A stretch of DNA of 64,000 nt from the NCBI GenBank assembly GCA_017462345.1, contig JAFTRI010000018.1:1-64000 (forward strand), given 5' to 3'. The position numbers and the translations under genes are program-made. Every line of letters begins with the position of its first letter. The first letter of the stretch is position 1. Shown here one piece after another: positions 4,230 through 53,241 of this stretch. This stretch comes from Muribaculaceae bacterium (lineage in GTDB: Bacteria; Bacteroidota; Bacteroidia; Bacteroidales; Muribaculaceae). The notes beneath the pieces are model-generated. The model was not told the origin of the DNA, did no database searches, and saw only the letters and a program-made list of their open reading frames with translations.

Positions 4230-4231
4230 CA

Positions 4232-4672: not shown

Positions 4673-4698
4673 TAGATATTAAGTAATAAAACAAAAAC

Positions 4699-4738: not shown

Positions 4739-4761
4739 AAATTAATAACAGTAGAAAAATT

Positions 4762-5100
4762 ATGGAAGAAACAGTAAAAACAGGAGAAACCTTTGATGGC
4801 GGAGTAACCGAGGAACAGATTAATCAATGGAAAGGGCGATATGGGAAAGTTGTGAGAATCGATGTTGTGGATGCCGGCGATTTACATGTGGGCTATTTCC
4901 ACCGCCCCCGACTTGAAACAATGAGTGCTGTTGCAAAGATGGCAAAGAGTGACGAGTTGAAAAGCTCGGAGGTGATGTTTGATAACTGTTGGCTTGGCGG
5001 TAGCGAGGCCATGCGCAAAGATGCGGTGCTCTTTTTGGAGGCGACAAAGCAGTTGGGTACAATGCTTAACAGTTGCCGCTCAAGCCTAAAAAACTTGTAG
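4762..5100 (+). CDS. Tail assembly chaperone, short form
   Basis: 112 residues, acidic, beginning MEETVKTGETFDGG. It sits between tube and tape measure, the place of the Mu gp41 and lambda G chaperones that hold the tape measure protein while the tube assembles. It stops at a TAG (5098-5100) four bases after a perfect slippery heptamer (5088-5094). The function is inferred from position, size and the frameshift site, since chaperone sequences vary widely. Confidence 0.7.
   Translation: MEETVKTGETFDGGVTEEQINQWKGRYGKVVRIDVVDAGDLHVGYFHRPRLETMSAVAKMAKSDELKSSEVMFDNCWLGGSEAMRKDAVLFLEATKQLGTMLNSCRSSLKNL
5088..5094 (+). promoter_or_regulatory. -1 programmed frameshift slippery site (A AAA AAC)
   Basis: In the frame of the short chaperone the codons read CTA AAA AAC TTG TAG, so the heptamer A-AAA-AAC is in the canonical register for -1 slippage. 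After slipping, reading goes on in the frame of the downstream ORF (CTT GTA GAG ...). That ORF has no good start codon of its own. Tail-chaperone frameshifting is well known in lambda (G/GT) and Mu-like phages. Confidence 0.85.
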
Positions 5101-5312
5101 AGGCGCAACTGTTATCGGATCGTGACGAAGAGGACGGATTTGAAAAAGGTTGTGCCTTGATAAGGTCGAATTTGGGGATTGACCCGACGATATGCAGTTA
5201 TGAGGATTGGGCAGCAAATTATGCGCAAGCCTTGTGGCTGGAAAAGTGGAGGTTGAAAAATCTAAATGAGATGATAGCGAGGATGTTCAGCACGGAAGGG
5301 AAAAAGCATTAA
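5094..5312 (+). CDS. Tail assembly chaperone, frameshift extension (GT-like)
   Basis: About 72 residues in the -1 frame (LVEAQLLSDRDEEDG to STEGKKH). They would be made only as the C-terminal part of a fusion of about 183 residues with the preceding ORF. The only in-frame start available at the left edge is a TTG at 5073, inside the upstream gene, with no ribosome site. The extension contains YEDWAANYAQALWLEKWRL, a helical Trp-rich segment as expected for a T domain that contacts the tape measure protein. By family knowledge, a minority of ribosomes would make the long form. Confidence 0.75.
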   Translation, partial: LVEAQLLSDRDEEDGFEKGCALIRSNLGIDPTICSYEDWAANYAQALWLEKWRLKNLNEMIARMFSTEGKKH

Positions 5313-5452
5313 GCCTTTTTGCGAAATAATTTAATGAATGGTTTAATCGCCCCTTGATAAATAAACCAAAGGAATAAAAAAGGGACGCAGATGACCAGTA
5401 GAAACTGAATAATCACGCCTAAATATCCAATTATGGCAACGATTAAATCCAT
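5309..5452 (-). CDS. Small membrane protein on the opposite strand (moron candidate)
   Basis: 47 residues starting at 5452 and ending at a TAA (5309-5311). Residues about 3-33 are almost wholly hydrophobic (GYLGVIIQFLLVICVPFLF), followed by a basic end (KLFRKKA), so it should be a one- or two-pass inner-membrane protein with its C-terminus inside. It is the only minus-strand gene in this late operon. A full Bacteroidetes-type promoter lies just upstream on the same strand (5474-5503). Independent promoters and opposite orientation mark morons, which are often expressed in the lysogen and protect against other phages or alter the host envelope. No family is recognised; the gene call rests on composition, promoter and lack of other use of the gap. 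Confidence 0.6.
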   Translation of the reverse strand: MDLIVAIIGYLGVIIQFLLVICVPFLFLWFIYQGAIKPFIKLFRKKA

Positions 5453-5473
5453 TGTTAAATAATTACTTCGCTA

Positions 5474-5503
5474 CAAAAGTATAAAAATTATTCTATATGT
5501 CAA
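5474..5503 (-). promoter_or_regulatory. Promoter of the minus-strand small membrane protein
   Basis: On the minus strand TTGACA (5498-5503) lies upstream of TACTTTTG (5474-5481), a match to the Bacteroidetes -7 consensus TAnnTTTG at a normal distance. The predicted transcript starts near 5467, about 15 bases before the ATG at 5452. The -33 part overlaps the first codons of the tape measure gene on the other strand. Confidence 0.6.
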
Positions 5504-7875: not shown

Positions 7876-8480
7876 TGATATCACCAATAAGTTTTCAATT
7901 TGTGGCGTCGGGCGTAGCGACGCAGGTAAAGGGGTCGTTGTATAGGTTTAAGCCGTCGAGGACAGGAAAGAGCCCGAACTGGGATGGGAGAGGGAATGAG
8001 ATAACGACAAATGAGCAAAGGAGCCCGATAACGGACAAGAGTTATTGGAAGGACCGTTATGTGCTATGTGAGCTGACTTTAGAGAACCGCAAGAAGGATC
8101 GTCTTGTGATGAATGACGCAGTTGTGTCGGTGAGCCGGACGAAGAATATCGTTACGACGCAGATTGTGGGGACGAACGGGACTGTTAAGGAGTATATCAG
8201 TGCGGGTGATTATAGTGTGAATATCGTTGTGGGTGTTGCTGCGGTGCGCGATGGTGTGATAGTCGATGAGTATCCGGCAGAGGGGTTGCGCGAGCTTCGT
8301 GCGTTCCTTGATGACAACGAGGCTTTAAGCGTGCACAGCGAGTTTCTTGAAGTGTTCGATATAACCAGCATAGTTGTAAAATCGTTCTCGGTATCGCAAG
8401 ACACGGCCAGCAACTACCAAAGCGTAAGCATCACGGCAGTGAGTGATGAGGAATACAATATTTACAGCACGGACTATTAA
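7875..8480 (+). CDS. Tail protein between tape measure and hub (DUF6046-like)
   Basis: 201 residues. It begins one base inside the tape measure stop codon (TAATG), which implies coupled translation. Visible features are KSPNWDGRGNEITTNEQ near the N-terminus and LRAFLDDNEALSVHSEFLE near the C-terminus; I associate these with a conserved tail family of Bacteroidetes prophages (DUF6046). By place it corresponds to the Mu N (gp43) protein that joins tape measure and hub. The exact family number is from memory and should be treated as likely, not certain. Confidence 0.6.
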   Translation: MISPISFQFVASGVATQVKGSLYRFKPSRTGKSPNWDGRGNEITTNEQRSPITDKSYWKDRYVLCELTLENRKKDRLVMNDAVVSVSRTKNIVTTQIVGTNGTVKEYISAGDYSVNIVVGVAAVRDGVIVDEYPAEGLRELRAFLDDNEALSVHSEFLEVFDITSIVVKSFSVSQDTASNYQSVSITAVSDEEYNIYSTDY

Positions 8481-8516
8481 ACAGCGTTTAACAACCCATT
8501 AAACATCATTTAACCG

Positions 8517-9473
8517 ATGTATAGACTAACGGCAAAAATAGAGATAGCGGGCGAGAAGCGATGGGAGCTTGATGGGGTAACGGAGGTGGAAATCACCCTC
8601 GACACCGAGCAGCTTACTGACACATGTAAACTGACGCTACCGAAACGGTTGAAATGGGACGGTGTGGCTGAAATGCCTGTGCGTCGAGGAGATGGGGTGA
8701 AGGTGTGGCTTGGCTATGATGACGATTTTCAATTGGCGTTCTCGGGCTACGTGCGCGATGTGGGTATTAAGACTCCAATAGTATTGACATGCGAGGACGA
8801 GATGTTTAGGTTGAAGCAAATGGCAACGGTAAAAAAGGCGTATAAGAGTGTAACGATTGAAACCTTGCTCAAGGATCAGGGGATAAGTTATCGGCTCAAT
8901 GTTATGGGAGAGCAGAGCTTGGGACAGTATCGCGTGACTGCCGACACAGTTGCCTCGTTGCTGGGGCATCTGCGGGAGAACGGTATCAGGAGTTTTTTCA
9001 GGTATGAGAATGGTGAGCCGGTGTTGTATTGCGGGGTGCTGTTTGAAAAAGAGGACAGTCCGACACAGGTATTTGAGACCGGTGTAAATATCATCAGCGA
9101 CCAGAGTCTGGAACAGCAGCAGGCTGAAAATATAAGATTGCGCGTGAAGGCAATATCGTTGATGCCGAACAACAAGAAAATCAAGGTAGAGGTGGGCGAT
9201 GCTGACGGAGAACACCGCACGCTGCACACCTACAACAAGACGGAAAGCGAACTCAAAGCGTGGGCGGAACAGGAGATAAAACGGTTGAAACGCGACGGTT
9301 TGAAAGGCAGTTTCACGACATTCGGGGCAAAACTTGTGGATAAACTTACCGCCATAGGGATAAAGATAGACGGCGAGAAAAAAGGTGTGTATCAGGTAGC
9401 GAAGAATGTAATAAAATATGGCACAGGAGGTTTCCGTCAGGAGATAACATTGGGGTCAAGAATAGGCGAATAA
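8517..9473 (+). CDS. Baseplate hub protein (gpD / Mu gp44-like)
   Basis: 318 residues. The N-terminal half has the beta-barrel pattern of hub proteins (VTEVEITLDTEQLTDTCKL, VRRGDGVKVWLGYDDD, FSGYVRDVG), which start by defining a ligand-like domain and a coordinate frame. The C-terminal half ends with HTYNKTESELKAWAEQEIKR, matching late-control D / gp27-like hubs. It should form the trimeric hub that holds the spike, encoded next. It follows the previous gene by 36 bp and precedes the spike gene by 14 bp. Confidence 0.8.
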   Translation: MYRLTAKIEIAGEKRWELDGVTEVEITLDTEQLTDTCKLTLPKRLKWDGVAEMPVRRGDGVKVWLGYDDDFQLAFSGYVRDVGIKTPIVLTCEDEMFRLKQMATVKKAYKSVTIETLLKDQGISYRLNVMGEQSLGQYRVTADTVASLLGHLRENGIRSFFRYENGEPVLYCGVLFEKEDSPTQVFETGVNIISDQSLEQQQAENIRLRVKAISLMPNNKKIKVEVGDADGEHRTLHTYNKTESELKAWAEQEIKRLKRDGLKGSFTTFGAKLVDKLTAIGIKIDGEKKGVYQVAKNVIKYGTGGFRQEITLGSRIGE

Positions 9474-9487
9474 AAACAGGATAAATC

Positions 9488-10099
9488 ATGAATAATATAG
9501 CAGACGCAATAAGACGAATGGCACAGGGCGGGAGGCAGACCGTGAGCATGGTATGCATGGTTGACGCGGTAGATAAAGAAGCCCGCACGGTTGATTGCAC
9601 TCCGATAGATGAGGGAGCTCCATTGCTTGGGGTGAACTTGCAGGCCAACCAGGATAGCGCATGGGGCGTTGTAATCTACCCCCGAGTGGGGAGTTATGTG
9701 GTGGTTGGGTTCGTTGCCGATGGCAATGCCGGGATAGTGTTGCTGACAGATGATATTGAAAGCATAGAGGTAGTAGTGAGCGACACGACGAGCCGGGTGG
9801 TAATCGACGAGGAGCGAGTGCGTATCGATGTGGGAGATGAAACGAGTGCCGAGCTAACGAAAGAAGGTGTGTTGCTGAATGGAGGTAGCCTCGGAGGACT
9901 TATCAAGGTTAAGGAGTTAACAAGCCGCATTAACAATATTGAGGAGGATATAAACTTATTAAAAGATGTTTTCTCAGGTTGGGTGTCAGTTCCGCAAGAT
10001 GGTGGAGCCGCCTTAAAGGCCGCTTCGGGGGCATGGGCAGGGAACAAATTGACACTTACGACGCGTGGTGATTATGAAAACGAGAAGGTGAAGCAATGA
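9488..10099 (+). CDS. Baseplate spike / assembly protein (gpV / Mu gp45-like)
   Basis: 203 residues. The N-terminal part is an OB-like domain (SMVCMVDAVDKEARTVDCT) with the pattern of baseplate assembly V proteins. A beta-rich region with strands of alternating residues follows, then a short coiled coil (about 145-165). Together these form the membrane-piercing spike at the tail tip. Its last four bases overlap the start of the next gene (ATGA), showing translational coupling with the gp46-like gene. Confidence 0.75.
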   Translation: MNNIADAIRRMAQGGRQTVSMVCMVDAVDKEARTVDCTPIDEGAPLLGVNLQANQDSAWGVVIYPRVGSYVVVGFVADGNAGIVLLTDDIESIEVVVSDTTSRVVIDEERVRIDVGDETSAELTKEGVLLNGGSLGGLIKVKELTSRINNIEEDINLLKDVFSGWVSVPQDGGAALKAASGAWAGNKLTLTTRGDYENEKVKQ

Positions 10100-10371
10100 G
10101 AGGAATATTGATAGATAGTGGAACAGGAGACCTATTGGTTGAAAATGGCTCGATTGTGATAGGCGACACTGAAGCACAGACGGTGGAGGCGGTATTGACT
10201 ACTAATCGTGGTGAGTTTAAGGAGTCTCCGTTGATAGGTGGTGAGGTGATGCAGATGCTTGGGGGAGTCGTAGATGTGATGTGGCCCGGTAGGGTGAAAA
10301 AGATGCTAAAGGCATGTGGTGTGGACTGTGAACGGGTAAAGGTTGATAATGGCGAGGTCATAATCGAATAG
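10096..10371 (+). CDS. Baseplate wedge protein (Mu gp46 / gp25-like)
   Basis: 91 residues. It opens with GILIDSGTGDLLVENGSIVIGD and has the segment VEAVLTTNRGEFKESPLIG, the pattern of Mu gp46 and P2 gpW/T4 gp25-like wedge proteins, which are short and lie between spike and gp47-like proteins. The ATG overlaps the stop of the spike gene. It would link hub and wedge in the baseplate. Confidence 0.75.
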   Translation: MRGILIDSGTGDLLVENGSIVIGDTEAQTVEAVLTTNRGEFKESPLIGGEVMQMLGGVVDVMWPGRVKKMLKACGVDCERVKVDNGEVIIE

Positions 10372-10373
10372 CA

Positions 10374-10643
10374 ATGGGAACGATAATAGTAAAAGACAGA
10401 CAAACGCTGCTTGACGTTGCGTTGCAGACGAGTGGCAGCCTTGAGGGTCTGATGGATCTTGCGATAGCTAACGGAAGGAGTGTAACCGATGAGCTTGCCG
10501 ATGGCGAAGAATTGATAACGGGTGAAGTGGTCGATAGAAAAGTTGTAGAACGGTATGAAATGGAGGGAGTATGCCCTGCGACGGAGGAGATAATAACAAC
10601 AAAAAAAATAAGTGATGAGAACAATTCAGGAGATCAAGGATAG
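10374..10643 (+). CDS. Small baseplate protein, LysM-like
   Basis: 89 residues starting 2 bp after the wedge gene. The segment IIVKDRQTLLDVALQTSGSL, followed by LMDLAIANGRSVTDELADG, has the helix-turn arrangement of a LysM-like domain, as seen in small baseplate proteins of contractile tails. Its 3' end overlaps the next gene by 29 bp if that starts at the ATG at 10615. The domain call is a pattern match only. Confidence 0.5.
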   Translation: MGTIIVKDRQTLLDVALQTSGSLEGLMDLAIANGRSVTDELADGEELITGEVVDRKVVERYEMEGVCPATEEIITTKKISDENNSGDQG

Positions 10644-11457
10644 CATGACGAGTGCTTTTATGGCCAACGCAGAAGCGGCGAAATTATGGGGCTTCGCTGT
10701 GGGTGATGAGTGGAATAATGTAATGGGCAGAGTGAGTGTGGAGAATGTGCTGTTTTACATAGTTGCTGTGTGTTGTCATGTGGTGGAGGGGTTGATGGAT
10801 GCTCATAAGCGAGAGGTTGATGATATGCTTAGTGCGCGATCACCGCATGGGTTGAGGTGGTATAGGGAAAAGGCATTGGCATTTATGAAGGATAAGGAAC
10901 TGCCTGGTGACAGCGACGAGTATGATACCGGGGGAATGAGTGAAGCTGAAATCGCTGAGCGGCGAGTGGTAAAATATGCGGCAGTGGAGGAAGATGCGCA
11001 GACTGGCATTCTGATTCTTAAAGTCGCCGGTGAAAATGGTGGTGCTCGATGTCGCTTACAAGAGGAGGAGGCGACGATGTTGCGCAGTTACATGAATGAG
11101 GTGAAAGATGCGGGGGTGTTAATCAACATCATCAACCGGGATGCGGATATATTTGGGTGCGAGGTTGATGTGTATTATAATGCTAACCTTGATGGAGAAC
11201 AGATAAGGAAGGATGTCGAGGACCGGATAAGAAGTTATGTGGCGAATTTGCCGTTTAATGGGGAGTATCATGATATGGGTCTTGTAAATGAGCTGCAAGG
11301 AGTTGCGGGGGTAAAGGTTGTGGATCTAAAAAACTCATTGAGCGGGACGGATAAAGATACGCTAACTTCAATTATGGGTCTTGCTTATCCTGTGAGTGGT
11401 TATTTCAAGGTGGAAGATGTGAATATAAATATGAAGCCTTATGGGAAGTATTTATGA
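10615..11457 (+). CDS. Baseplate J-like protein (Mu gp47-like)
   Basis: 280 residues from the ATG at 10615; a GTG immediately before it at 10612 is a less likely start. The N-terminal part has WNNVMGRVSVENVLFYIVAVC, the middle is acidic, and the C-terminal half carries VDVYYNANLDGEQIRKDVEDRI-type strands and a helix as in baseplate J domains, with VNELQGVAGVKVVDL near the end. It would form the peripheral wedge that carries the fibres. Position between gp46- and gp48-like genes supports this. It overlaps the next gene by 17 bp. Confidence 0.65.
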   Translation: MRTIQEIKDSMTSAFMANAEAAKLWGFAVGDEWNNVMGRVSVENVLFYIVAVCCHVVEGLMDAHKREVDDMLSARSPHGLRWYREKALAFMKDKELPGDSDEYDTGGMSEAEIAERRVVKYAAVEEDAQTGILILKVAGENGGARCRLQEEEATMLRSYMNEVKDAGVLINIINRDADIFGCEVDVYYNANLDGEQIRKDVEDRIRSYVANLPFNGEYHDMGLVNELQGVAGVKVVDLKNSLSGTDKDTLTSIMGLAYPVSGYFKVEDVNINMKPYGKYL

Positions 11458-19022: not shown

Positions 19023-19565
19023 ATGGACATTGTTTCTCGCATCAAAATTTTCATGAATTATCTTAACATCGCCAACTCACAGTTTGCTGACAGTTGCCGG
19101 ATACCTCGCCCTACTATTTCACAAATACTGAATGGACGGAACAAAAAGATCAGCGATGAACTTATTAGTAAGATTCATGAAACATATCCATCCCTTTCCG
19201 TACTATGGCTAATGTTTGGCGAGGGAGAGATGCTGATTGATTCAAATATCAAAACCTCAGAGCCCCAAAATGACGCACTAATCGATTTTAACGATAATGA
19301 AACATCAGAAGTTGAAGGTTTTATGCAAACTCTTGACTTCAGTACATCACCAACAGATCCTATACTTCAAAAAAATCCTGACCCCGATATTTCTGCGAAA
19401 GAGGATGATAACGGAATTTTTATAGGAAAAAAGGACATTACACAAGAGCCACAAAAAACATCAATATCATTCAATACCGACAATTCAAAAAAAATTGTCA
19501 ATATAATGGTATTTTACAGCGACAACAGTTTTGAGTCATTCACACCGGCTTCCGCCAAAAACTGA
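19023..19565 (+). CDS. XRE-family helix-turn-helix regulator
   Basis: 180 residues from the ATG at 19023; an open frame reaches back to 18972 but crosses the promoter, so the later start is right. Residues about 5-60 form the helix-turn-helix (MNYLNIANSQFADSCRI, PTISQILNGRNKKIS), followed by SVLWLMFGEGEML, typical of Bacteroidales XRE proteins. The middle is acidic and disordered. The C-terminus has IVNIMVFYSDNSFESF, a conserved short motif in this family. It stands alone and may regulate itself. Targets are unknown. It is probably chromosomal and not part of the prophage, as it lies beyond the right end. Confidence 0.8.
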   Translation: MDIVSRIKIFMNYLNIANSQFADSCRIPRPTISQILNGRNKKISDELISKIHETYPSLSVLWLMFGEGEMLIDSNIKTSEPQNDALIDFNDNETSEVEGFMQTLDFSTSPTDPILQKNPDPDISAKEDDNGIFIGKKDITQEPQKTSISFNTDNSKKIVNIMVFYSDNSFESFTPASAKN

Positions 19566-43342: not shown

Positions 43343-43481
43343 GCCACAAATTTTGACACTCACCCCATTCGACCCCATAAAAACTGCTCTGCCGAGACAT
43401 CCTCAGCAGAAATAACACATATATTATATGATGGTGTGTAAACCATGTTGCCCCGTAACACCACCCTATCCCATATAGCCA

Positions 43482-43498
43482 ATCTCTTACTAAGAGAT
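43482..43498. promoter_or_regulatory. 17-bp palindromic operator, copy 1
   Basis: ATCTCTTACTAAGAGAT is a perfect 8-bp inverted repeat around one base. The same palindrome recurs at 43657-43673. A minus-strand -7 match TAAATTTG (43512-43519) places a leftward start just before it, so the site would lie at about +7 to +23 of that transcript. Confidence 0.65.
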
Positions 43499-43511
43499 AT
43501 GTTTTATTGTG

Positions 43512-43519
43512 CAAATTTA
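43512..43519 (-). promoter_or_regulatory. Distal leftward -7 element upstream of rpoN
   Basis: Minus-strand TAAATTTG matches TAnnTTTG. No clear -33 element is seen. It would start a transcript near 43505 that crosses operator copy 1 on its way to rpoN. Confidence 0.4.
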
Positions 43520-43656
43520 CGTAAAGTTTCCTATAAATAAACATTTTAGAGGATTTTTTTAGATGTAATTCCTCCGATTTTGTTTAACAAATTTAGCAAA
43601 AATTTTGTAACACCCATTTGTTTCTCCTGATTATTACAGTATTATTTTCATCATCA

Positions 43657-43673
43657 ATCTCTTAGTAAGAGAT
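43657..43673. promoter_or_regulatory. 17-bp palindromic operator, copy 2
   Basis: ATCTCTTAGTAAGAGAT has the same arms as copy 1 with G in place of C at the centre. Both copies are preceded by CA and followed by A. It lies 48 bp before the first gene of the caspase cluster. The centres are 175 bp apart. Confidence 0.65.
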
Positions 43674-43721
43674 AGGCTCTAAAAACAGATCTTTTTTGTA
43701 GAATTATAACTAAAAATAACA

Positions 43722-45794
43722 ATGAGAAAAGTATTATCCATTGCAACAATTATGCTTGGTGCTCTTGCCGTTTCGGCGCAGAATGACGCAATAGCAAAGA
43801 GGGTATTCAATGTAAAACACCAACCGGAATTTGTTGACAACCATTCGTATAAGGTATTCTACTTGTCGGATGGCAAAGTGTACAACCTGATGAACTTCAA
43901 ATTGTCGGACAAAGCCAAGAACATTTCCCAAATGGCAATACAGCCCGGAGGAGCGACATGTGCGATATTGATCAATGACACACAAGACACTAAGGTTGAA
44001 ATATACGATACCGAAACGACCAATAAACTTATTTCCCGAATTAACGATACTGAAATGTTACAAACTGCAATATGTTACTCTCCCGACGGAAAGACATTGG
44101 CAGTGGGAAATACCGGCAACGAAGTAAGGTTATACGACACCAAGCAACATGCAATTTACGGCATAATATCCACCGGAATAACACCTCAAGGGATAGCTTT
44201 AAGTGAAAACAATTACTTCATGGCAATATCAAACGGAAGTGTTATCGAAATATGGAACCATCAAAACAATTCGCTTAGAGCAACACTTCCATGTGGAGCA
44301 AACATAACATCCCTTACATTCTCTCCCGACAATTCAATGCTTGCCGTAACATCAGTCGACGGGAACGTTAAGGTTTACGACACCGAAACATTCTCAGACT
44401 ACCCGCTGTACAGTTATACCGGAATGGGTAATGCCCTATCTTCACACTTCCATCCCGACAACAAATATTTAGGAATAGTCAAAGATGACAAGACTATATT
44501 GTTACAAAACGTACATAACACAATGGATGTTCGTGAAATCATCAGCTACAACGGAGGAATACACAACATGCGCTTTGTAAGAGACATCAACAACCCTGAA
44601 AAAGAATTCATACTTTACACCTCAAGTGTAGGAATCATAATGCAACAATTGACCGACTTGAATCCTAACTATAACCAATTGCTGTCACAAAGAGTCAATG
44701 AACGCATGAACGAGTGGATGAAAATGATGGAAGGAGAAAGCCTTGAAGACTATCGTATACGAGTAAACGAAGAAACCCGTGCACAGCAGATGATGATCTT
44801 TGAAAACGAGATTGCGACAGAAATGGCAGGTGACCTTATTGCAGCAGAAACAATTTCACTTGGAGGCTTCAACCAAGAAAAAAACCTTTTGACACTTGAT
44901 TTTGGCGGCATGCCTTCAATTGCGCTTGAAGTTCCGCAGAACGAATTATCATCATTCAACAATCCTTCAAATCTAAGATTTGAAAATACAATATACGGAC
45001 TTAACGACAAAGATCAATTTGAGGTCATCTATACCGAAGTATTCAACAGCGAAACCGGAAAAACCTATACATACAACAACCTTGACCGCAAACCCATATC
45101 ATTTGATGACGATTTCGTACCGTTCGAAGTGATAGACCAAGCCAACATGGATCAAATCAAGCTCGAAGGTATCAAGAACGATATAGTAGAAACAGCCAAA
45201 ACCGAGAACCTGATTTCAGACAACACTCACATCGATGTAAACACCGAAGTATTAAGTGATGTGGATGCTAACGGTAAGCGCATACTGAATTACAAAATCG
45301 GTTACAAATATGAAGTCGAGAAAAATTTCTCAGCAAAAGAGGACTTCCCCTCAGGAAAATATATCATTACTGAAAGTAACGCAGCAATGTCAATGCTTGC
45401 AATTATCAACAAAGCATTCTCATCGGATTTTGCCCAATATATCAAGCCGGGTAAACGTGTACGCGTAAAGATTACCGGAAGTGCCGACGCCTCCCCTATC
45501 CTTAACCGCATCAGATATAACGGTTGCTATGGAGACTTCAATAACGAACTCGTGTATAAAAACGGGCAATTGTCAAACATCTCGGTAAACAAGGCTTCAG
45601 GCATAAAGGAGAATGACCAGCTTGCATTCCTGCGTGCAATGGGCGTAAAAGACTATATCGACAACAACATTACCGAACTCAAGACAATGGACTGCGAATA
45701 CCAATACAACATCGAGCTTGCGACCAAAAAAGGTGGAGAGTTCCGTCGCATCAGTGTCGAGTTCTTATTTATCGATGCTATTGAAAAACAATAA
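43722..45794 (+). CDS. Secreted WD40-like beta-propeller protein of the caspase cluster
   Basis: 690 residues. Signal peptide to about residue 19 (GALAVSAQ). Residues about 50-310 hold propeller blades with WD40-like strands (TAICYSPDGKTLAVGNTGNE, SLTFSPDNSMLAVTSVDG). Residues about 322-470 form a module also present in the caspase protein next door (ERMNEWMKM, GKTYTYNNLD). The C-terminal third has GKRVRVKITGSADASPI and FLRAMGVKDYID, which faintly recalls OmpA-like peptidoglycan-binding domains. It should act in the periplasm or at the cell surface, as a scaffold or sensor for the caspase. It is the first gene of the cluster. Confidence 0.8.
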   Translation: MRKVLSIATIMLGALAVSAQNDAIAKRVFNVKHQPEFVDNHSYKVFYLSDGKVYNLMNFKLSDKAKNISQMAIQPGGATCAILINDTQDTKVEIYDTETTNKLISRINDTEMLQTAICYSPDGKTLAVGNTGNEVRLYDTKQHAIYGIISTGITPQGIALSENNYFMAISNGSVIEIWNHQNNSLRATLPCGANITSLTFSPDNSMLAVTSVDGNVKVYDTETFSDYPLYSYTGMGNALSSHFHPDNKYLGIVKDDKTILLQNVHNTMDVREIISYNGGIHNMRFVRDINNPEKEFILYTSSVGIIMQQLTDLNPNYNQLLSQRVNERMNEWMKMMEGESLEDYRIRVNEETRAQQMMIFENEIATEMAGDLIAAETISLGGFNQEKNLLTLDFGGMPSIALEVPQNELSSFNNPSNLRFENTIYGLNDKDQFEVIYTEVFNSETGKTYTYNNLDRKPISFDDDFVPFEVIDQANMDQIKLEGIKNDIVETAKTENLISDNTHIDVNTEVLSDVDANGKRILNYKIGYKYEVEKNFSAKEDFPSGKYIITESNAAMSMLAIINKAFSSDFAQYIKPGKRVRVKITGSADASPILNRIRYNGCYGDFNNELVYKNGQLSNISVNKASGIKENDQLAFLRAMGVKDYIDNNITELKTMDCEYQYNIELATKKGGEFRRISVEFLFIDAIEKQ

Positions 45795-45802
45795 ACCAGG
45801 TC

Positions 45803-48229
45803 ATGATGATGAGACAACTCAAACAAATACTGACACTTTTAATGACCATCGTTTTAACCGGGACGCTGTCGGCACAGACAAGCGTCTCGGCTAAAGCCGA
45901 TAATGACCTCAAAGAATTTGAGTCCCAATATCATGCAGGGGCAAACAGTACCCAACTGTATGAAACCCTGTACTCAGCCTATAAAGGTTATCTCTATGTC
46001 ATAGAAACGAATCCTAACGACAGGACAGCATTAGCAGGATTAAGGAAAATATATCCCTACATGATTAACGGGGCTGTATTCTATTCATCCAACAACAATA
46101 ACACACGTGCATACGATTTCGCAACAGCCTATATCGACATGCCGACGCTCCCGGCATTTAAAAAGGAAAGATTTTCACGAGATAACCAATATCCACAATT
46201 CTGCTATTTTGCAGCAACAATCGCATACAACAACAAACAATATGACGATGCCATCAAGTACTATAAATTCTACATCGAAAGCGGAGATAAAATTTACTTG
46301 GAAAAAAGCATGACCTACCTAAAAAACACGTATTATCTCAAAATAACCGACAACTTCGAGAACAAAGACTTTTCGCCGCAAACGGAACAGATTATAAATG
46401 AACTCCTTGAATTAGACCCCAATAATATAGGAGGACTTTTTAACAAAGCAATACTACTTAATAAAAAAGGGGATTTAAAAAATGCTGTCCAGGTATATGA
46501 ACGCTTATACAGGATGAAGCCTAATGAATTGAGCATCTGCCGGAATTATGCTCTTACATCGTTCAAATATGCCAATGAACTTATTAATGAAAATGACCAA
46601 TACCAAGCAAAGAAACACCTTGAGACATCAGCATATATTTTCGGACTTTTAGCAGACAATACATCCGATGAAAATACTCCTGTATACAGACAGGGTCATA
46701 ATCAAGCAAAAGAGATGTTATCCAAGCTAAGCGACGTCAAGGGAAAATATTACGCATCAACCGGTCAGACTCCACACACAAACAGCACACCTTCTGCTTC
46801 AAGCAGCTATACAAGCACCCGGACACATACTCCGGTGTCAAAACATGAATATATTGCATTCTCCGAACTGCCAAGTTTCATTGAATATGCAAAAAAATTC
46901 GTTGAAGACGGGGTAAATTCATGGCAGAAAAAGGATGACTATGAAACGATGAACGAATATAAAGCCAGAGTTACCGAACAATCAAGAGAAGTAAAGAAAA
47001 AACAATTAGCAAAAGCAGCCGAAAACAACTACATTGCAGAATACGGTTCACGCATAAGCCTTGACAACCTGAGATTAGAGAAATATGATGCAGATAACGG
47101 AGTATTCCTAATAACCTCACCCGACTTCGGGAATATGCTCCTGCCGGTACCACGGGCGAATAATGAAGCCCGCTCATTTGAACAGCAATGGGGAACAGTA
47201 AAGATCGAGAATCCGCAATACTGCATTGCAAACGACAAATTGGCATTGTCACAACTTTCGTTCCGCACCAATACCGGTAAACGCTATACCTACAACAATG
47301 AAGCGCAATTGACCTACAACAACACAACAATTGAATATCGTTTTGAAGAAGTTGATGTTAATGGACTTATTGCCAACGACAACCAACCTACATCAGGAGC
47401 GACAATTGTCAATAACAACGTAAGCGTAGGCAAATCGGATGTCGATATCGACATCCCGGAAACAAATAAAACAAATGAAAATCTATTTGCAGTAATCTTT
47501 GCAAACGAGAACTACCGTCGCGAATCAAAAGTCAGCTTTGCTCACAATGACGGAACGGCATTCAAAAACTACTGCATCAAAACACTGGGTTGCCCAGAAA
47601 ATAACGTGCATTTTGTCAAGGATGCAACTCTAAACGACTTTATAGCAGAAACCGACTGGGTAACAAAAATTGCCGAAGCCTACGATGGGGAGGCACAGAT
47701 ATTGTTATACTATGCAGGTCATGGAGTTCCCGATGAAGCATCAAAATCGGCATACCTGCTGCCTACCGACGGAATGGCATCAAACATACGAAGCGGTTAC
47801 AAACTCGATGACCTCTATGCCACACTCGGAAACCTACCTGCAAAAAGTGTAACCGTGTTTCTTGACGCATGTTTCAGCGGGGCACAACGTTCAGGCGGAC
47901 CGATGGAATCAAAAAAGGATAGCCGTGCCCCAATCATCAAGGCAAAAGCGAGTATCCCACAAGGGAAAATGGTTGTATTGAGCGCAGCAACAGGAGACGA
48001 AACGGCATTCCCCTATAAAGAACACCAGCATGGCATGTTCACCTACTTCCTACTCAAGAAACTCAAAGAGAGTAACGGAGAAGCCACATACGGAGAACTT
48101 GCCGACTACATCACCAAGAATGTCACACGCAACAGTCTTCGCATAAACAATAAATCCCAAACTCCAACCGCTACCGCCTCACCGGCAGTAACAGAGGATG
48201 AATGGAAAAAATGGAAACTAAGAAACTAA
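45803..48229 (+). CDS. Secreted TPR-caspase (peptidase C14)
   Basis: 808 residues with a signal peptide (TIVLTGTLSAQ). Residues about 30-320 are helical TPR-like repeats (KQYDDAIKYYKFYIES, NKKGDLKNAVQVYERLY). Residues about 362-515 are the module shared with the propeller protein (GKRYTYNNEA). The C-terminal 240 residues are a caspase domain: LFAVIFANENYR, His640 in LYYAGHGVP and Cys690 in LDACFSGAQRSG, the intact catalytic pair. Specificity is unknown; bacterial members usually cut after Arg or Lys. Export of an active caspase to the envelope is notable. Its gene follows the propeller gene by 8 bp. Confidence 0.9.
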   Translation: MMMRQLKQILTLLMTIVLTGTLSAQTSVSAKADNDLKEFESQYHAGANSTQLYETLYSAYKGYLYVIETNPNDRTALAGLRKIYPYMINGAVFYSSNNNNTRAYDFATAYIDMPTLPAFKKERFSRDNQYPQFCYFAATIAYNNKQYDDAIKYYKFYIESGDKIYLEKSMTYLKNTYYLKITDNFENKDFSPQTEQIINELLELDPNNIGGLFNKAILLNKKGDLKNAVQVYERLYRMKPNELSICRNYALTSFKYANELINENDQYQAKKHLETSAYIFGLLADNTSDENTPVYRQGHNQAKEMLSKLSDVKGKYYASTGQTPHTNSTPSASSSYTSTRTHTPVSKHEYIAFSELPSFIEYAKKFVEDGVNSWQKKDDYETMNEYKARVTEQSREVKKKQLAKAAENNYIAEYGSRISLDNLRLEKYDADNGVFLITSPDFGNMLLPVPRANNEARSFEQQWGTVKIENPQYCIANDKLALSQLSFRTNTGKRYTYNNEAQLTYNNTTIEYRFEEVDVNGLIANDNQPTSGATIVNNNVSVGKSDVDIDIPETNKTNENLFAVIFANENYRRESKVSFAHNDGTAFKNYCIKTLGCPENNVHFVKDATLNDFIAETDWVTKIAEAYDGEAQILLYYAGHGVPDEASKSAYLLPTDGMASNIRSGYKLDDLYATLGNLPAKSVTVFLDACFSGAQRSGGPMESKKDSRAPIIKAKASIPQGKMVVLSAATGDETAFPYKEHQHGMFTYFLLKKLKESNGEATYGELADYITKNVTRNSLRINNKSQTPTATASPAVTEDEWKKWKLRN

Positions 48230-48254
48230 ACATAACATCTAAACAAATTAAAGC

Positions 48255-49121
48255 ATGAAGAAAAGATTACTTTCGGCACTATGCCTGTGCCTGTCCGTTT
48301 TTGCGACAGCAATAGCGGAAGATGTAAACTACAACGGAGTAGTTGTATCTCCCGAGGGTACACCAATCATGGGAGCAACAGTTACAGTTACCGGAACAGA
48401 AGTCAGCACCATGACCGACATGGACGGTAAGTTTTCAATTGTCATACCTGAAGGGTATTCAAACATCACCGTAAGCTATGCCGGAATGAAGAAACAGACC
48501 ATAAATGTGCAACGCGAACCGGTGATTCTCTATCCAACTGCGGCTGATGCCCTTGCAGCCCAAATGAAAGCGAGAAAACGGGCACAAGCGGCAAGCAGCT
48601 ACAAGAAAAACCTTTTCAACCTTGAGGTAAGCTACGGCAGCATGGGCGGAGATTTAGGTGACATCTATAAAGATTATGAATTATGTACCGACTATATAGG
48701 TCTGAACATGGGATGGCATCACAACTATAAAGAGTGGATAGGATGGGAAATTTTCAACTTGGGAGCCATGATGCCTGATGATGGGGAAGATCCCGAAGAA
48801 ATCATAGCATATCTCACCACCGGTATCAGACTTCAAACACCAAGCTGGAACAAACTTTCTCTATTCACATCATTCAACATTGGTGCAGCCTATAACTATT
48901 ACGCTTGGAACTATAACGACGGGGCAAGCCTCGCATGGCGTTTTAAAGTGGGTCTCAACTTAGGCAAATGGGTATATATTGCATACGAAATGGACAACAT
49001 ATCTTCATTCGAAGGAATCGAAGAATATGAATATGACTATTACTACGACGGCTATAATTCAGTCGACACAAAAGATGCGTCATTCATCCGTAACTCAATT
49101 GCCATCGGTTTTAATTTCTAA
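48255..49121 (+). CDS. Carboxypeptidase-regulatory domain / outer-membrane barrel protein, copy 1
   Basis: 288 residues, signal peptide to about 21 (LSVFATAIAED). Residues 24-100 form a CarboxypepD_reg-like fold (VVVSPEGTPIMGATVTVTG, TMTDMDGKFSIVIPEG), the domain that precedes barrels in SusC-like proteins. The rest is a small beta-barrel with alternating aromatic strands ending IAIGFNF, a terminal Phe as in outer-membrane proteins. It is homologous to the next gene. Confidence 0.75.
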   Translation: MKKRLLSALCLCLSVFATAIAEDVNYNGVVVSPEGTPIMGATVTVTGTEVSTMTDMDGKFSIVIPEGYSNITVSYAGMKKQTINVQREPVILYPTAADALAAQMKARKRAQAASSYKKNLFNLEVSYGSMGGDLGDIYKDYELCTDYIGLNMGWHHNYKEWIGWEIFNLGAMMPDDGEDPEEIIAYLTTGIRLQTPSWNKLSLFTSFNIGAAYNYYAWNYNDGASLAWRFKVGLNLGKWVYIAYEMDNISSFEGIEEYEYDYYYDGYNSVDTKDASFIRNSIAIGFNF

Positions 49122-49142
49122 TTCTCCAAAATCACAACAACT

Positions 49143-50078
49143 ATGAACAAGTTAACAGCAATTATATTGTGCATTGCCTCAAGTGCGGCAATCGCTTCTG
49201 CTCAAAGCAATAAAATTTCGACTGTTGTCATATCACCAAACGGCGAAGCCGTTCCCGGAGCGTCAGTAACAGTAACAGGCAGCGACATATCGACGACAAC
49301 CGACATCAACGGTAAGTTCACCATCGATGCACCAACCGAATACAAGACACTAACAATATCACACAACAGCTATCAGCCGACAACAATCGACATTATGCCG
49401 ACAATCACAATGACTCCTGCTAAAAAGATCATCAACGGATTCGGCATAGAGTTGGGCTACGTATCATCAACATGGAGCTATAAAAATTCAGGAGATGAGG
49501 AAACAAGCAGTACCGGAGGTTTCACATTTGGTATAACATACGACCACACTATCAAATCAGTTCCCAACTTCTCGATTATGGGCGGATTATTCTATGTTCC
49601 AAAAGGGATATCAATGTGGGACGACGAAGAAGTTTACAATGCTAACTACATCGAACTCCAAGTACTTGCCAAATACAAATATGACCTTCCTGTACTCAAC
49701 AACGAACTCAACATATTTGCCATGGCTGGACCATACATTGCATACGGAGTAAGTGGAAGCATTGATGTAGAGGATGACCCCGACGGCATATTTGAGGACG
49801 CATCAACATTTGATCTATACAATCGTTTTGATGCCGGTCTTGCACTCGGTCTTGGAGTAAACTGGCGCAACTACTCCTTGACATTCCGCTATGATTTGGG
49901 GCTTTCCAACATATTTGACAAAGAAAATTATGCTGAAGGTATCCTTGCCCTAAATGGAGTAGAGAAAAGCAACAATACTAAATCATACGATTATCTAAAA
50001 GAGGATATCGTTTCCGAGCTTGAAGATATAAGTGTAAAGAACCGCAGTTTCATGATTACCGTAGGCTACCGTTTCTAA
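49143..50078 (+). CDS. Carboxypeptidase-regulatory domain / outer-membrane barrel protein, copy 2
   Basis: 311 residues, signal peptide (SSAAIASAQ). The same two-part layout: VVISPNGEAVPGASVTVTG and TTTDINGKFTIDAPTE, then a barrel with VPNFSIMGGLFYVPKG and a terminal VGYRF. The two copies probably arose by duplication. They may hold the other cluster proteins at the outer membrane. Confidence 0.75.
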   Translation: MNKLTAIILCIASSAAIASAQSNKISTVVISPNGEAVPGASVTVTGSDISTTTDINGKFTIDAPTEYKTLTISHNSYQPTTIDIMPTITMTPAKKIINGFGIELGYVSSTWSYKNSGDEETSSTGGFTFGITYDHTIKSVPNFSIMGGLFYVPKGISMWDDEEVYNANYIELQVLAKYKYDLPVLNNELNIFAMAGPYIAYGVSGSIDVEDDPDGIFEDASTFDLYNRFDAGLALGLGVNWRNYSLTFRYDLGLSNIFDKENYAEGILALNGVEKSNNTKSYDYLKEDIVSELEDISVKNRSFMITVGYRF

Positions 50079-50111
50079 CATTAAATAAATCCAATTAAAA
50101 TCAGAACAATA

Positions 50112-50795
50112 ATGAAAAAGTTATTAATGATTGTGAGCTGCATGCTCATCACACTGTCAACAATCAATCTTCATGCCGAAGATTCAGAGACAGAAAAAAT
50201 CATGAAAGAGCGCAAAGAATTGCGCAAGATGTCACGTAAGGCACTGAACGAAAAGGCATCAAAGGATGCACGTAAGGAAGCCAAGCAGCTCAAAAAACAA
50301 GGTTGGAAGTCAGCTCCCGGAGCCCTTCCTTTGGAAAAACAGCTCGACCGCTCATACATGATGCAGCAGGAATATGACGAAGACATGTTCCCCAAATATA
50401 TCCTCGGAACAGCACAGAGTATCGGTGAAAACTTTGACGGGGCAAAAATGCAGGCGATGGAACTTGCAAAACTTGATCTTGCCGGACAGATACAAACCGA
50501 AGTCACTGCACTTGCAGAATCAAATGTTGCCAACAAACAGATGTCAGAAAACGATGCCGCTACCGTTACCAAGACCGTCATGGGCGCAAAGAACCTCATA
50601 TCCCAAAGCATTGGTCGCGTAATTCCGATAGTGGAAGTGTACCGTGACACAAATAAAGGGACAAAAGAGGTTAGAGTTACCATTGCCTACAACGCCGCGA
50701 TGGCTAAAGAGGCTGCAAAGAAAGCCATCCGCCAAGAGCTTGAGGACAAAGGGGAAGAACTTATCGACCAACTCGATAAAGCCATGGGCTGGTAA
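50112..50795 (+). CDS. LPP20-like secreted protein
   Basis: 227 residues, signal peptide ending NLHAE. A basic coiled region (about 28-75) precedes a domain with YILGTAQSIGENFDGAKMQA, AKLDLAGQIQTEV and VIPIVEVYRDTNKGTKEVRV, the alternating helix-strand pattern of LPP20 / TolB-N-like domains. The C-terminus is helical and charged. It may bind peptidoglycan or a partner. A hairpin terminator follows at 50822-50850. Confidence 0.65.
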   Translation: MKKLLMIVSCMLITLSTINLHAEDSETEKIMKERKELRKMSRKALNEKASKDARKEAKQLKKQGWKSAPGALPLEKQLDRSYMMQQEYDEDMFPKYILGTAQSIGENFDGAKMQAMELAKLDLAGQIQTEVTALAESNVANKQMSENDAATVTKTVMGAKNLISQSIGRVIPIVEVYRDTNKGTKEVRVTIAYNAAMAKEAAKKAIRQELEDKGEELIDQLDKAMGW

Positions 50796-50821
50796 TTAAT
50801 TCCATTAGATCACATTAGAGG

Positions 50822-50850
50822 TGAGGGCAACCCTTTTGGGGTCACCCTCA
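50822..50850 (+). terminator. Internal terminator in the caspase cluster
   Basis: TGAGGG and ACCC pair with GGGT and CCCTCA with a 2-base internal mismatch, followed by TCTTTATATTT. It would separate genes 1-5 from the DUF4384 and transglutaminase genes, at least in part. Confidence 0.6.
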
Positions 50851-50893
50851 TCTTTATATTTAATCCACATTTTCAAAAAAACAATTCCGACGG

Positions 50894-51772
50894 ATGAAAA
50901 AATTTCTACTAATACTGTTCTTTTCATGCACAATTTTTCAGGCATTCCCTGATGATAATGTCAGTGCCGAATACACTTATCATGCAAGCGAACAAGAATC
51001 CCCTGCCGAAGCAAAGCAAACGGCCGTACAACGCGCCAGAATACAAGCTCTTGAAGACAGATACGGGAGGAAATTGCGTAGCGATAATATTACGGACATA
51101 ACAAATCGTGACGGCAAAACATCACAAAATTTCATAGCCACAAGCTACAGTGAGGTAAACGGAGAATGGCTTAGAGACACCAAAGAACCGGAATTTGAAA
51201 TATTATTTGAGGCAAATACGCTTGTCATTAAAGTAAAAGTGTGGGGAAAAGCCCGTGAAATAAAGCAGAATGCTGTAGATGTGGATGTGGCAATACTGAG
51301 AAACGGGACAAACCGAAAATTTGAGAGCGAAGAGTTCAATGACGGAGACCAATTCTATGTTGCGTTCAAATCCCCGATAAACGGATATGTAGCGATATAC
51401 TATATCGACAAAGAGACGCAGGACGCATTCTGTCTTCTACCCTACTCAGGAGATACCGAAGGGCAGGTTTCCATTGCAGCAAACCGCGAATACATATTTT
51501 TCAGTCCCGAAATGTGTCCGGATCAGCACAAAAAAGCATTAGTGGATGAAATATTGCTTCCCAGCGGGAGAAACAAAAAAATCGACGAGATAGTGATAAT
51601 CTTCTCACACAATTCGTTTTTCAAAGCTCTTGACAATGAATATAAATCAGACGAGGGTCAACTTCCCCGTGGTCTGAAGACCAAAGAATTCAATGAATGG
51701 CTAAGCAAATGCCGATCAAAAGACAGTGATATGATTACCGTCAGGAAACACATAACCATAGCAGCCAAATAA
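50894..51772 (+). CDS. DUF4384 domain protein
   Basis: 292 residues, signal peptide to about 19 (LFFSCTIFQAFPD). Residues 25-115 are LPP20/FlgT-N-like (AEAKQTAVQRARIQALEDRYG). Residues about 130-250 are a DUF4384 domain (FNDGDQFYVAFKSPINGYVAIYYID broken here into FYVAFKSPINGYVAIYY and the later LPYSGDTEGQVSI). DUF4384 is a frequent partner of caspase-like peptidases and protein kinases in bacteria. Its stop shares a base with the next start (TAATG). Confidence 0.75.
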   Translation: MKKFLLILFFSCTIFQAFPDDNVSAEYTYHASEQESPAEAKQTAVQRARIQALEDRYGRKLRSDNITDITNRDGKTSQNFIATSYSEVNGEWLRDTKEPEFEILFEANTLVIKVKVWGKAREIKQNAVDVDVAILRNGTNRKFESEEFNDGDQFYVAFKSPINGYVAIYYIDKETQDAFCLLPYSGDTEGQVSIAANREYIFFSPEMCPDQHKKALVDEILLPSGRNKKIDEIVIIFSHNSFFKALDNEYKSDEGQLPRGLKTKEFNEWLSKCRSKDSDMITVRKHITIAAK

Positions 51773-53241
51773 TGACCATGAAAAAAGCAATTATCACATC
51801 ATTACTTACAATCTCGGCAGTGACATGTCTTGCGCAACGGGATTTCAAGGCCGAATATGAGGCATTCAAGAATCAGACAAAAAAAGAGTACAACGATTTC
51901 CGGAGCAACTGCAACAAGGAGTATGCCGATTTCATGCGTAAAGCATGGGCAACATACAAAGGCGAAAAGCCAATACCACAACCCAAGGAAGAACCGGCTC
52001 CTCCCATACCGACAATCAGCACAATACCGCCAACAATCAGCACCGTGCCTATTGTCCTTGACACGATCATACCGGCTCCCAAACCTCACCATATTCCGCA
52101 GCCGCAGCCCATAGAGCCGATTAAAGAAACACCACGCCCCGACGACAGATACCATACATTCAGTTTCTTCGGCACTTCATGTAAAGTACGACTTGACGAC
52201 AGACACAAGTTTTCAATCAACAATACCGACGAAGCATCGATAGCCGACAGCTGGGAACATTGCTCTCTCCCCTTATTCAACAACGTGATTTTCGATTGTC
52301 TCGAATTAAGGAAATCGCTTAACCTGTGTGACTTTGCCTATCTTGAAATGCTGCATGAAATGTCTGAATCATTCTTCGGAAGTGAAACAAATGCCGCAAC
52401 CCTGCTCATGGCATACATCTACTGCCAGTCAGGCTACAAGATGAAACTTGCCATAAGCAATGACAGGCTATATATGATGTACGCGACCCGACACACCATC
52501 TACCGCCAGTCTTATTTCCTCATCGACAACACAGCCTACTACCCCTACCGTATGGACTCGGAAAGCTGCAGGATATGCCACGCGTCATTCCCCAACGAGC
52601 AGCCGCTGTCATTGGAGATTGGCCGGCAGATGGCACTTGCCTCCAAACCGTCGGCAGCACGTGAAATAAAATCGGCAACCTATCCCGATGTAAAAGTCTC
52701 GGTATCGGTCAACAAGAACCTGATAGATTTCTACAACAACTATCCCGCTTCGGAAATAGACGACAATTTCATGAGCAAATGGGCTATGTATGCCAACACT
52801 CCGGCAAGTCCGCAAATCAAGGAGGCGCTTTATCCCGCTCTCAGGGAGGCAATCAAAGGAAAGACTCCCCATGCGGCAGTAAGCCGGATACTGAACTTTG
52901 TCCAGACCGGGTTCACATACGGTTACGACAGCAAGATATGGGGATATGACCGTGCGTTCTTTGCCGACGAGACACTATACTATCCCTATTGCGACTGCGA
53001 GGATCGATCGATACTTTTTTCCCGTATTGTACGCGATCTGCTCAGTCTGGAAGTGGTACTGGTCTACTATCCCGGACACCTTGCCACTGCTGTACATTTC
53101 AATGAAGAAGTAAAAGGTGACTACATACCGTTGAACGGAAAAAAATTCACCGTATGCGACCCGACATTCGTCGGCGCCCGGGTGGGAATGACAATGCCCG
53201 ATCTCGACAACATGACAGCGACCGTAATCCTTCTAGAATAG
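51772..53241 (+). CDS. Transglutaminase-like protein
   Basis: 489 residues, signal peptide ending AVTCLAQ. Residues about 20-65 are a charged coil (YEAFKNQTKKEYNDF), 70-125 are Pro-rich, then a large domain. The C-terminal part has the transglutaminase core: Cys409 in CDCEDRSILF, His436 or His443 in GHLATAVHF, Asp463 in VCDPTFVGARVG. It could be a protease, amidase or cross-linking enzyme in the envelope. The Pro-rich stretch suggests a spacer across the periplasm. It is translationally coupled to the DUF4384 gene. Confidence 0.75.
   Translation: MTMKKAIITSLLTISAVTCLAQRDFKAEYEAFKNQTKKEYNDFRSNCNKEYADFMRKAWATYKGEKPIPQPKEEPAPPIPTISTIPPTISTVPIVLDTIIPAPKPHHIPQPQPIEPIKETPRPDDRYHTFSFFGTSCKVRLDDRHKFSINNTDEASIADSWEHCSLPLFNNVIFDCLELRKSLNLCDFAYLEMLHEMSESFFGSETNAATLLMAYIYCQSGYKMKLAISNDRLYMMYATRHTIYRQSYFLIDNTAYYPYRMDSESCRICHASFPNEQPLSLEIGRQMALASKPSAAREIKSATYPDVKVSVSVNKNLIDFYNNYPASEIDDNFMSKWAMYANTPASPQIKEALYPALREAIKGKTPHAAVSRILNFVQTGFTYGYDSKIWGYDRAFFADETLYYPYCDCEDRSILFSRIVRDLLSLEVVLVYYPGHLATAVHFNEEVKGDYIPLNGKKFTVCDPTFVGARVGMTMPDLDNMTATVILLE

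Follow-up and report, generated by a model that had tools for sequence, protein, structure and literature searches.

Can a caspase serve as a working part of the bacterial envelope? Most discussion of bacterial caspases treats them as proteases for death or defence inside the cell. The locus that raises this question lies in a 64,000-nucleotide stretch of a Muribaculaceae bacterium (assembly GCA_017462345.1, contig JAFTRI010000018.1, positions 1 to 64,000), hereafter the window, which lies on contig C39 of genome G000 in our sample (2.1 Mb, 84% complete). Seven open reading frames (ORFs), P1 to P7, all on the plus strand, occupy positions 43722-53241 in the ORF listing of the window (Table 1). 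They encode a propeller (P1), a caspase with tetratricopeptide repeats (TPR; P2), two proteins with CarboxypepD_reg domains (P3 and P4), a small protein that we call LPP20-like (P5), a DUF4384 protein (P6) and a transglutaminase-like protein (P7). The original prediction took the seven for a joint envelope protein-processing system. The answer that we favour, and hold to be moderately probable, is an envelope-located, basic-specific proteolytic module of Bacteroidales that is probably phase-variable in this strain.

The caspase recurs with DUF4384 and LPP20-like genes across Bacteroidales

We defined a strong caspase match as E 5e-34 or better, a threshold of our own choice that selects 20 genomes and 40 places among 61 relatives (25 of the 61 genomes match at E 0.001). 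DUF4384 was found in 18 of these relatives, and all 18 belong to the 20 with a strong caspase match (p 1e-13). An order-wide sample of 149 genomes from 133 genera, searched with the different thresholds of 1e-8 for DUF4384 and 1e-30 for the caspase, gave the same picture: all 24 DUF4384 genomes fell within the 31 caspase genomes (p 8e-22). Both p-values ignore shared ancestry. Within 8 kb of a strong caspase in the 61 relatives were 21 of 24 DUF4384 places, 13 of 14 propeller places and 16 of 29 transglutaminase-like places. The gene-neighbourhood search that the original prediction had proposed as a check thus finds neighbours that do co-occur. At further DUF4384 places of the order-wide sample, a caspase was visible in 8 of the 20 stretches fetched (of 27 places; some contigs were short). 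In a phylum-wide sample, the DUF4384 family was matched in 3 of 296 genomes, the window's own and two with weak, partial matches. The cluster itself is present in 3 of 12 genus genomes, several of which are incomplete.

The best 80 of 573 tblastn-confirmed relatives of the transglutaminase-like protein gave 79 loci, on contigs whose labels include Prevotella, Bacteroides, Phocaeicola, Parabacteroides, Alistipes, Odoribacter, Paludibacteraceae and Muribaculaceae. Among neighbours on the same strand and at most 3 kb apart, these loci held a caspase in 33 cases, DUF4384 in 35, both in 30, an LPP20-like gene in 48 and CHASE2 in 17. Across 30 full loci, gene distances covaried strongly between caspase and DUF4384 (r 0.51) and between DUF4384 and the LPP20-like gene (r 0.58), each value being reached in 0 of 2000 permutations. 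Covariation was weaker between caspase and LPP20-like gene (r 0.27, 1 of 2000) and between caspase and transglutaminase-like gene (r 0.21, 8 of 2000), and reached r 0.24 (71 of 2000) between DUF4384 and transglutaminase-like gene. Because covariation is strong within the first group and weak for the transglutaminase-like gene, which also exists in a caspase-less flavour, we conclude that caspase, DUF4384 and LPP20-like gene constitute the core and that the transglutaminase-like gene is a looser partner.

The usual company at the caspase-less loci inspected is a small, probably lipid-anchored protein (judged by eye), a protein of about 600-640 residues and another of about 560-700 residues. Where scanned, the last carried PEGA domains, joined in L054 by an FGE-sulfatase domain and in L061 by a barrel. 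The L054 protein, encoded at 7071-9182 of its locus, combines five PEGA stretches with the FGE-sulfatase domain in one chain. The window's genome has a second transglutaminase-like cluster, without caspase, beside ORFs of 202, 618 and 593 residues (G000:C4, locus L130, 3992-9750); compared by layout alone, it resembles the caspase-less flavour.

The composition of the caspase-bearing version also varies. At 6 of 20 loci inspected, a CHASE2 protein and a protein of about 285 residues lie 5' of the propeller, and CHASE2 scored 70 and 94 bits in the two that were tested. Of these 20 loci, only those with this genus's version have the two CarboxypepD/barrel genes together, and single look-alikes occur in three others. 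The empty-site comparison between rpoN and guaB, which flank the cluster in the window, offered no synteny to compare, since both genes were found in 8 genus-mates but on different contigs in all of them. A contig labelled Roseburia sp. (L099) carries the full propeller, caspase, LPP20-like, DUF4384 and transglutaminase-like cluster. Roseburia is a Firmicutes name, and the label is probably wrong or the bin mixed.

Both putative enzymes retain their catalytic residues

The Peptidase_C14 domain of P2 (PF00656) scored 79.7 bits against a curated cut-off of 21.4. An alignment of 20 sequences, the window's included, shows no variation at His640 or Cys690, and the dyad is kept in 68 of the 72 caspase domains aligned from the fetched loci, which confirms the TPR-caspase with intact dyad that had been predicted. 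The other four domains (loci L065, L137 and L147) lose His and Cys together and are therefore read as pseudo-caspases. Equivalents of Asp583 and Asp688 are present in all 72, these four included. From their position in the motif, both residues appear equivalent to Asp95 and Asp211 of TbMC2, the two Asp that accommodate basic residues in this type I metacaspase (PMC6426788, passages considered). Since these putative acidic pocket residues are conserved, P2 would be expected to cut after Arg or Lys. P2 scored 63.1 bits against the EACC1-associated caspase type (NF047832), below its cut-off of 140. A PDB sequence search with the caspase domain returned 10 sequences, all of MALT1 paracaspase (E 1e-6 to 2e-4); the search with whole P2 filled up with TPR chains.

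For P7, the claim of a transglutaminase-like fold with a Cys, a His and an Asp held at the level of residues but not of the Pfam domain. Transglut_core (PF01841) scored 14.7 bits, below the cut-off of 23, and was matched by 3 of 12 family members at E 0.05. By contrast, all 12 aligned sequences have Cys409, His436 and Asp463, and the triad is kept in 115 of 116 transglutaminase-like domains, the exception being a single Asp to Glu change. The PDB sequence search gave no relatives of the protein or of its domain. A strict text motif had yielded lower counts (64 of 72 for the caspase, 88 of 116 for the triad), which the alignment counts replace; the sets of 72 and 116 hold a few duplicates from loci fetched twice (L032/L051 and L047/L075, for example). 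Judged by the conservation of their catalytic residues, both putative enzymes look intact.

Propeller and caspase share a domain

P1 and P2 have about 150 residues in common (BLAST E 2e-9; profile-profile probability 98%), a feature that the original prediction had overlooked. Among the 1841 ORFs of the fetched loci, profiles of this shared domain match only caspases (28) and propellers (17). No Pfam family matched it above cut-off. The shared domain provides a specific, testable docking hypothesis for propeller and caspase.

Inverted repeats bound a putative promoter switch

Upstream of the propeller gene, in a region likewise passed over at first, are two copies of ATCTCTTASTAAGAGAT, 175 bp apart. 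They sit in 25-nt inverted arms that are 92% complementary and separated by 158 nt, and each arm is itself palindromic. With up to three mismatches, the repeat has 2 matches in the window, a number reached by 0 of 100 shuffles. With at most one mismatch, the motif occurs as pairs only, spaced 175-198 bp apart: two pairs in G000, two in the congener G009 and none in G010, the third genome searched. The reversed-pattern control at the same stringency gave 0 in all three genomes. An odd central base is mirrored between the arms in all four pairs, as is a second substitution in the pair on G009:C2.

The other three pairs stand directly 5' of SusC genes that have SusD-type genes behind them, and two of these pairs separate divergent SusC operons. 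Pfam confirmed five SusC and two SusD products at the repeat loci. All four repeat-bounded segments hold a -7 box of the Bacteroides type, TAnnTTTG. The -33 box is weak; the Bacteroides promoter consensus is TTTG at -33 and TANNTTTGY at -7 (PMC8748976, passages considered). Because the repeat bounds -7 boxes and also precedes three SusC/SusD loci, here and in a congener, phase variation of the cluster in the window's strain is probable, through inversion of a putative promoter. Both -7 boxes in the window point away from the cluster, an orientation that would be the OFF state. The state is uncertain, since a weaker promoter pair facing the cluster is visible by eye.

Several details of the repeat loci were recorded besides. 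The pairs at L140 (5828-6021) and L141 (5874-6066) are the two that separate divergent SusC operons; their TAnnTTTG box points to the left in one of the genomes and to the right in the other. The pair at L142 (6211-6425, G009), with its copies 198 bp apart, lies 5' of a SusC/SusD pair. Inside the putative invertible segment of the window, a 28-nt direct repeat (71%) spans 43502-43605, with one -7 box per copy. At L115, exact 26-nt inverted repeats 182 nt apart (5536-5769) stand 5' of a caspase cluster, without a TAnnTTTG box. Another metagenome-assembled genome (MAG) has a repeat pair between two divergent genes (L057, 5314-5507), whose arms, CTTGGTAAGAGATA, are near the window's repeat in sequence.

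Layout, export signals and the remaining proteins

The genes are separated by gaps of 8, 25, 21, 33 and 98 bp, and P6 and P7 overlap by 1 bp. The set is flanked by rpoN (sigma-54, minus strand) and guaB (IMP dehydrogenase), both Pfam-confirmed. The hairpin 3' of P7 folds at -38.9 kcal/mol (z -6.5). The tight spacing and the long closing hairpin that had been described are thus both present. Signal peptides had been claimed for every gene, and by a crude home-made rule 7 of 7 cluster ORFs have signal-peptide-like N-termini, against 11 of 40 other window ORFs of at least 150 residues. These starts on all seven proteins fit with an envelope system. A looser rule applied to other loci was discarded, since half of the background passes it (622 of 1233 ORFs). 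The scan for sigma-70-type promoters was uninformative, with 29 found and 25.7 expected.

The annotations of the remaining proteins fared unevenly. Pfam recognised the predicted propeller of P1 as WD40 (45.4 bits against a cut-off of 27). P3 and P4 had been described as two CarboxypepD-reg/barrel proteins; both have the regulatory domain (CarbopepD_reg_2), but a barrel (OMP_b-brl_2) was confirmed in P4 only. The predicted DUF4384 identity of P6 is sub-threshold in the protein itself (PF14326, 23.8 bits against 27); in its family, 11 of 14 members match at E 0.05, the best at 2.8e-8. The PDB search gave no DUF4384 relatives and one phage-fibre chain at E 0.086. P5 came near no Pfam cut-off, and Pfam gave the LPP20 identity (PF02169) no support, none of 14 family members matching it at E 0.01; the label that we keep reflects a likeness seen by eye.

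Table 1 Features of the caspase cluster and of its upstream region (window coordinates)
Feature	Position	Strand	Description
P1	43722..45794	+	WD40 propeller; signal-peptide-like start; shared domain at about residues 311-461; conserved C-terminal domain without Pfam match
P2	45803..48229	+	TPR; signal-peptide-like start; shared domain at about residues 353-507; C-terminal caspase domain, residues 562-792
P2 key residues			His640/Cys690; acidic Asp583/Asp688
P3	48255..49121	+	CarboxypepD_reg domain; signal-peptide-like start; barrel unconfirmed by Pfam
P4	49143..50078	+	CarboxypepD_reg and outer-membrane barrel OMP_b-brl_2; signal-peptide-like start
P5	50112..50795	+	Small; signal-peptide-like start; LPP20-like by eye only; family conserved within the module
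P6	50894..51772	+	DUF4384 (sub-threshold); signal-peptide-like start; the caspase's strictest co-occurrence partner
P7	51772..53241	+	Transglutaminase-like; signal-peptide-like start; Cys409/His436/Asp463
Hairpin after P7	53264..53306 (approximate)	+	18-bp stem, no T-run
Inverted repeat, left arm, 25 nt	43474..43498		Core ATCTCTTACTAAGAGAT at 43482-43498
Inverted repeat, right arm	43657..43681		Core ATCTCTTAGTAAGAGAT at 43657-43673; 92% complementary to left arm
Putative invertible promoter segment	43499..43656		Two TAnnTTTG -7 boxes on the minus strand, 43519-43512 and 43595-43588
Weaker promoter pair in the segment, by eye only	43617-43620 and 43643-43650	+	TTTG and TATTTTCA, respectively

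Elsewhere in the window, phage genes at positions 1507-11454 code for an amidase, a tail sheath, a tape measure, two proteins of the baseplate hub and a member of a phage family whose function is unknown. Seven of eight window ORFs tested had a PHROG match, including a repressor-like ORF at 19023-19562. This suggests a contractile-tail prophage.

Discussion

How might such a module work? All of its parts would be exported via their signal peptides and assembled at the outer membrane or in the periplasm. There, the TPR-caspase would be a working cysteine protease that, in response to a signal, cleaves envelope proteins after Arg or Lys. The propeller, through the domain of about 150 residues that it shares with the caspase, is probably a docking partner, a sensor or a substrate presenter for it. 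DUF4384 and LPP20-like proteins, as the obligatory core together with the caspase, would probably form an outer-membrane-associated assembly. The transglutaminase-like protein may be a second cysteine enzyme, peptidase or crosslinker, acting at the same surface, while the CarboxypepD/barrel proteins may anchor this genus's version at the outer membrane and a CHASE2 membrane receptor may supply the sensor in some relatives. The upstream repeat-bounded segment of about 200 bp is predicted to flip, arming the cluster in part of the population, as would the SusC/SusD promoters with the same repeat. The outcome could be a remodelling of surface or vesicles. The earlier idea of joint envelope protein processing is thus supported in part by co-occurrence, catalytic residues and signal-like starts, but not for all members, the barrel pair being confined to the genus and the transglutaminase-like gene also occurring without a caspase.

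Several observations weigh against this reading. Some of them concern the switch. The cluster copies of G009 and G010 are without the repeat pair, so that the switch is no fixed part of the system. When two mismatches are allowed, the 12 genus genomes yield only single extra sites, at about the rate of the reversed control. Repeat pairs stand 5' of 6 of 65 cluster leaders and of 7 of 301 controls (p 0.015), only a modest enrichment. This count was made with exact arms of at least 13 nt, 13-nt seeds 80-350 bp apart, an upstream gap of at least 120 bp and enough sequence; it supersedes a first one (5 of 47 cluster starts, 13 of 919 ORFs), the newer controls being also required to have an upstream gap. 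Two of the seven control matches (the window's rpoN and L041) are the case repeats seen from the divergent neighbour. The six leader pairs include one of 26 nt in an Odoribacter MAG (L115), one of 19 nt in a Bacteroidaceae MAG (L124) and one in Alistipes (L062), whose arms share TAAGAGA with those of the window; the arm of L041 is T-rich, and L120 is a cluster without caspase. A search for serine-family recombinases, which left tyrosine recombinases unsought, found no serine invertase in G009, which has repeat pairs, and a serine resolvase family once in G000; a serine invertase common to both repeat-bearing genomes was therefore dropped as a candidate.

Other such points concern the gene set. 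No DUF4384 lies within 8 kb at 18 of the 40 strong caspase places, and many caspases of P2's family stand apart, since only the other 22 have it nearby. The same gene run holds no caspase, DUF4384, LPP20-like or CHASE2 gene at 25 of the 79 best transglutaminase-like loci, and the distances of transglutaminase-like and LPP20-like genes hardly covary (r 0.13, 340 of 2000 permutations). An OmpA-like C-terminus of P1, suggested by eye, was abandoned after neither a Pfam match nor an OmpA in the PDB search was found for it.

Could the cluster instead be an extracytoplasmic cousin of the caspase conflict systems, in which propeller or CHASE2 senses phage or envelope attack and caspase and transglutaminase-like enzyme respond from the periplasm by killing or sealing the cell? 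Its patchy presence in the genus and the pseudo-caspases would suit such a role, and the FGE-sulfatase, CHASE2, TPR and WD40 domains of those systems recur here or in relatives. Moreover, passages of PMC7159879 list caspases, and in rare cases transglutaminase-like peptidases, among the alternatives, and CHASE2 occurs in related systems (passages of PMC8195603). However, PADLOC assigned a generic caspase (PDLC02987) to P2, HEAT-ARM_XIII to P1 (26.2 bits), nothing to the other five and no system; none of the seven proteins has a Pfam match to an NTPase, TIR, nuclease or vWA/MoxR domain. All seven look exported, whereas the systems described in these passages are cytoplasmic or at the membrane, and the flanking rpoN and guaB are housekeeping genes. 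We consider a conflict system unlikely. A nutritional or scavenging set, in which the caspase and the transglutaminase-like peptidase are exported to trim proteins of the diet or the host, at the surface or in vesicles, and are controlled by the SusC/SusD switch, would explain why the same repeat precedes SusC/SusD loci here and in a congener, and the cluster does encode one outer-membrane barrel. Yet Pfam matched no SusD, TonB-dependent receptor barrel or plug, or transporter in the seven proteins, and P3 and P4 have just the N-terminal CarboxypepD_reg domain in common with SusC. The fixed DUF4384 and LPP20-like partners, the TPR and the shared domain would point to a regulated assembly more than to a digestive enzyme, and a nutritional role seems to us quite improbable.

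The inverted repeats, for their part, might be an operator pair for a transcription factor and not recombination sites, the cluster being simply regulated. The arms are individually palindromic, as operators are, and our searches so far, in the serine family, have identified no cognate recombinase. Against this, the arms are long and closely matched, and at the two pairs that separate divergent SusC operons the TAnnTTTG box is oppositely oriented. The mirrored central bases, together with the extra mirrored substitution of G009:C2, are expected for matched recombination sites and are left unexplained by operators. This weakens the operator alternative, to which we give little credence, and we retain the envelope-located module with an invertible promoter.

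Parts of this picture are already known. Passages of PMC3501461 on prokaryotic caspase homologues (orthocaspases and metacaspases) describe the same Peptidase_C14 domain in the company of TPR and WD40, and had noted operons with surface functions and possible signal-peptide N-terminal helices. Neither promoter inversion nor a DUF4384, LPP20-like or transglutaminase neighbourhood is named in them; in the present case, each of the seven products looks exported and the core is found repeatedly across Bacteroidales. A link between DUF4384 and caspases is likewise on record, in the QC-dyad pseudo-orthocaspases of Alphaproteobacteria (passages of PMC6426788). There, DUF4384 is C-terminal in a protein with trypsin-like and QC-dyad caspase domains, whereas here it forms a separate protein beside an intact caspase. 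The conflict systems (passages of PMC7159879 and PMC8195603) are alike in joining a caspase with other peptidases and, through CHASE2 and FGE-sulfatase, in features of our relatives and of the caspase-less sister flavour; the seven proteins differ in lacking NTPase and vWA domains and in looking exported. In B. fragilis, promoters invert at SusC/SusD genes and upstream of a cluster of seven genes on which hypervesiculation depends (passages of PMC4747536). The resemblance lies in inverted repeats around a promoter 5' of a seven-gene cluster with membrane proteins and in the TAnnTTTG -7 consensus. We liken the two clusters (BF3397-BF3403 in B. fragilis) by layout alone and not by gene identities, and inversion here is predicted. 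Among the titles and abstracts listed from the openly licensed literature in PubMed Central, there was no account of this cluster or neighbourhood, of a phase-variable caspase or of an invertible promoter before a caspase, which is no proof of absence.

A bolder extension of the envelope module, which we regard as a tentative and rather doubtful proposal, is an extracytoplasmic caspase cascade. A propeller or CHASE2 sensor would activate a periplasmic Arg/Lys-specific caspase, with the second cysteine enzyme and the outer-membrane assembly, to remodel, vesiculate or kill the surface, and a promoter flip would arm this cascade in a subpopulation only. Phase variation would then be a recurring trait of the system, given the repeat pairs of other sequence that stand before this cluster in other genera.

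What does the cluster mean for Bacteroidales? A conserved, apparently exported set, its catalytic residues intact in almost every copy aligned, provides a concrete place to seek an envelope caspase pathway. The predicted DNA switch, if real, would allow the system to be locked ON or OFF.

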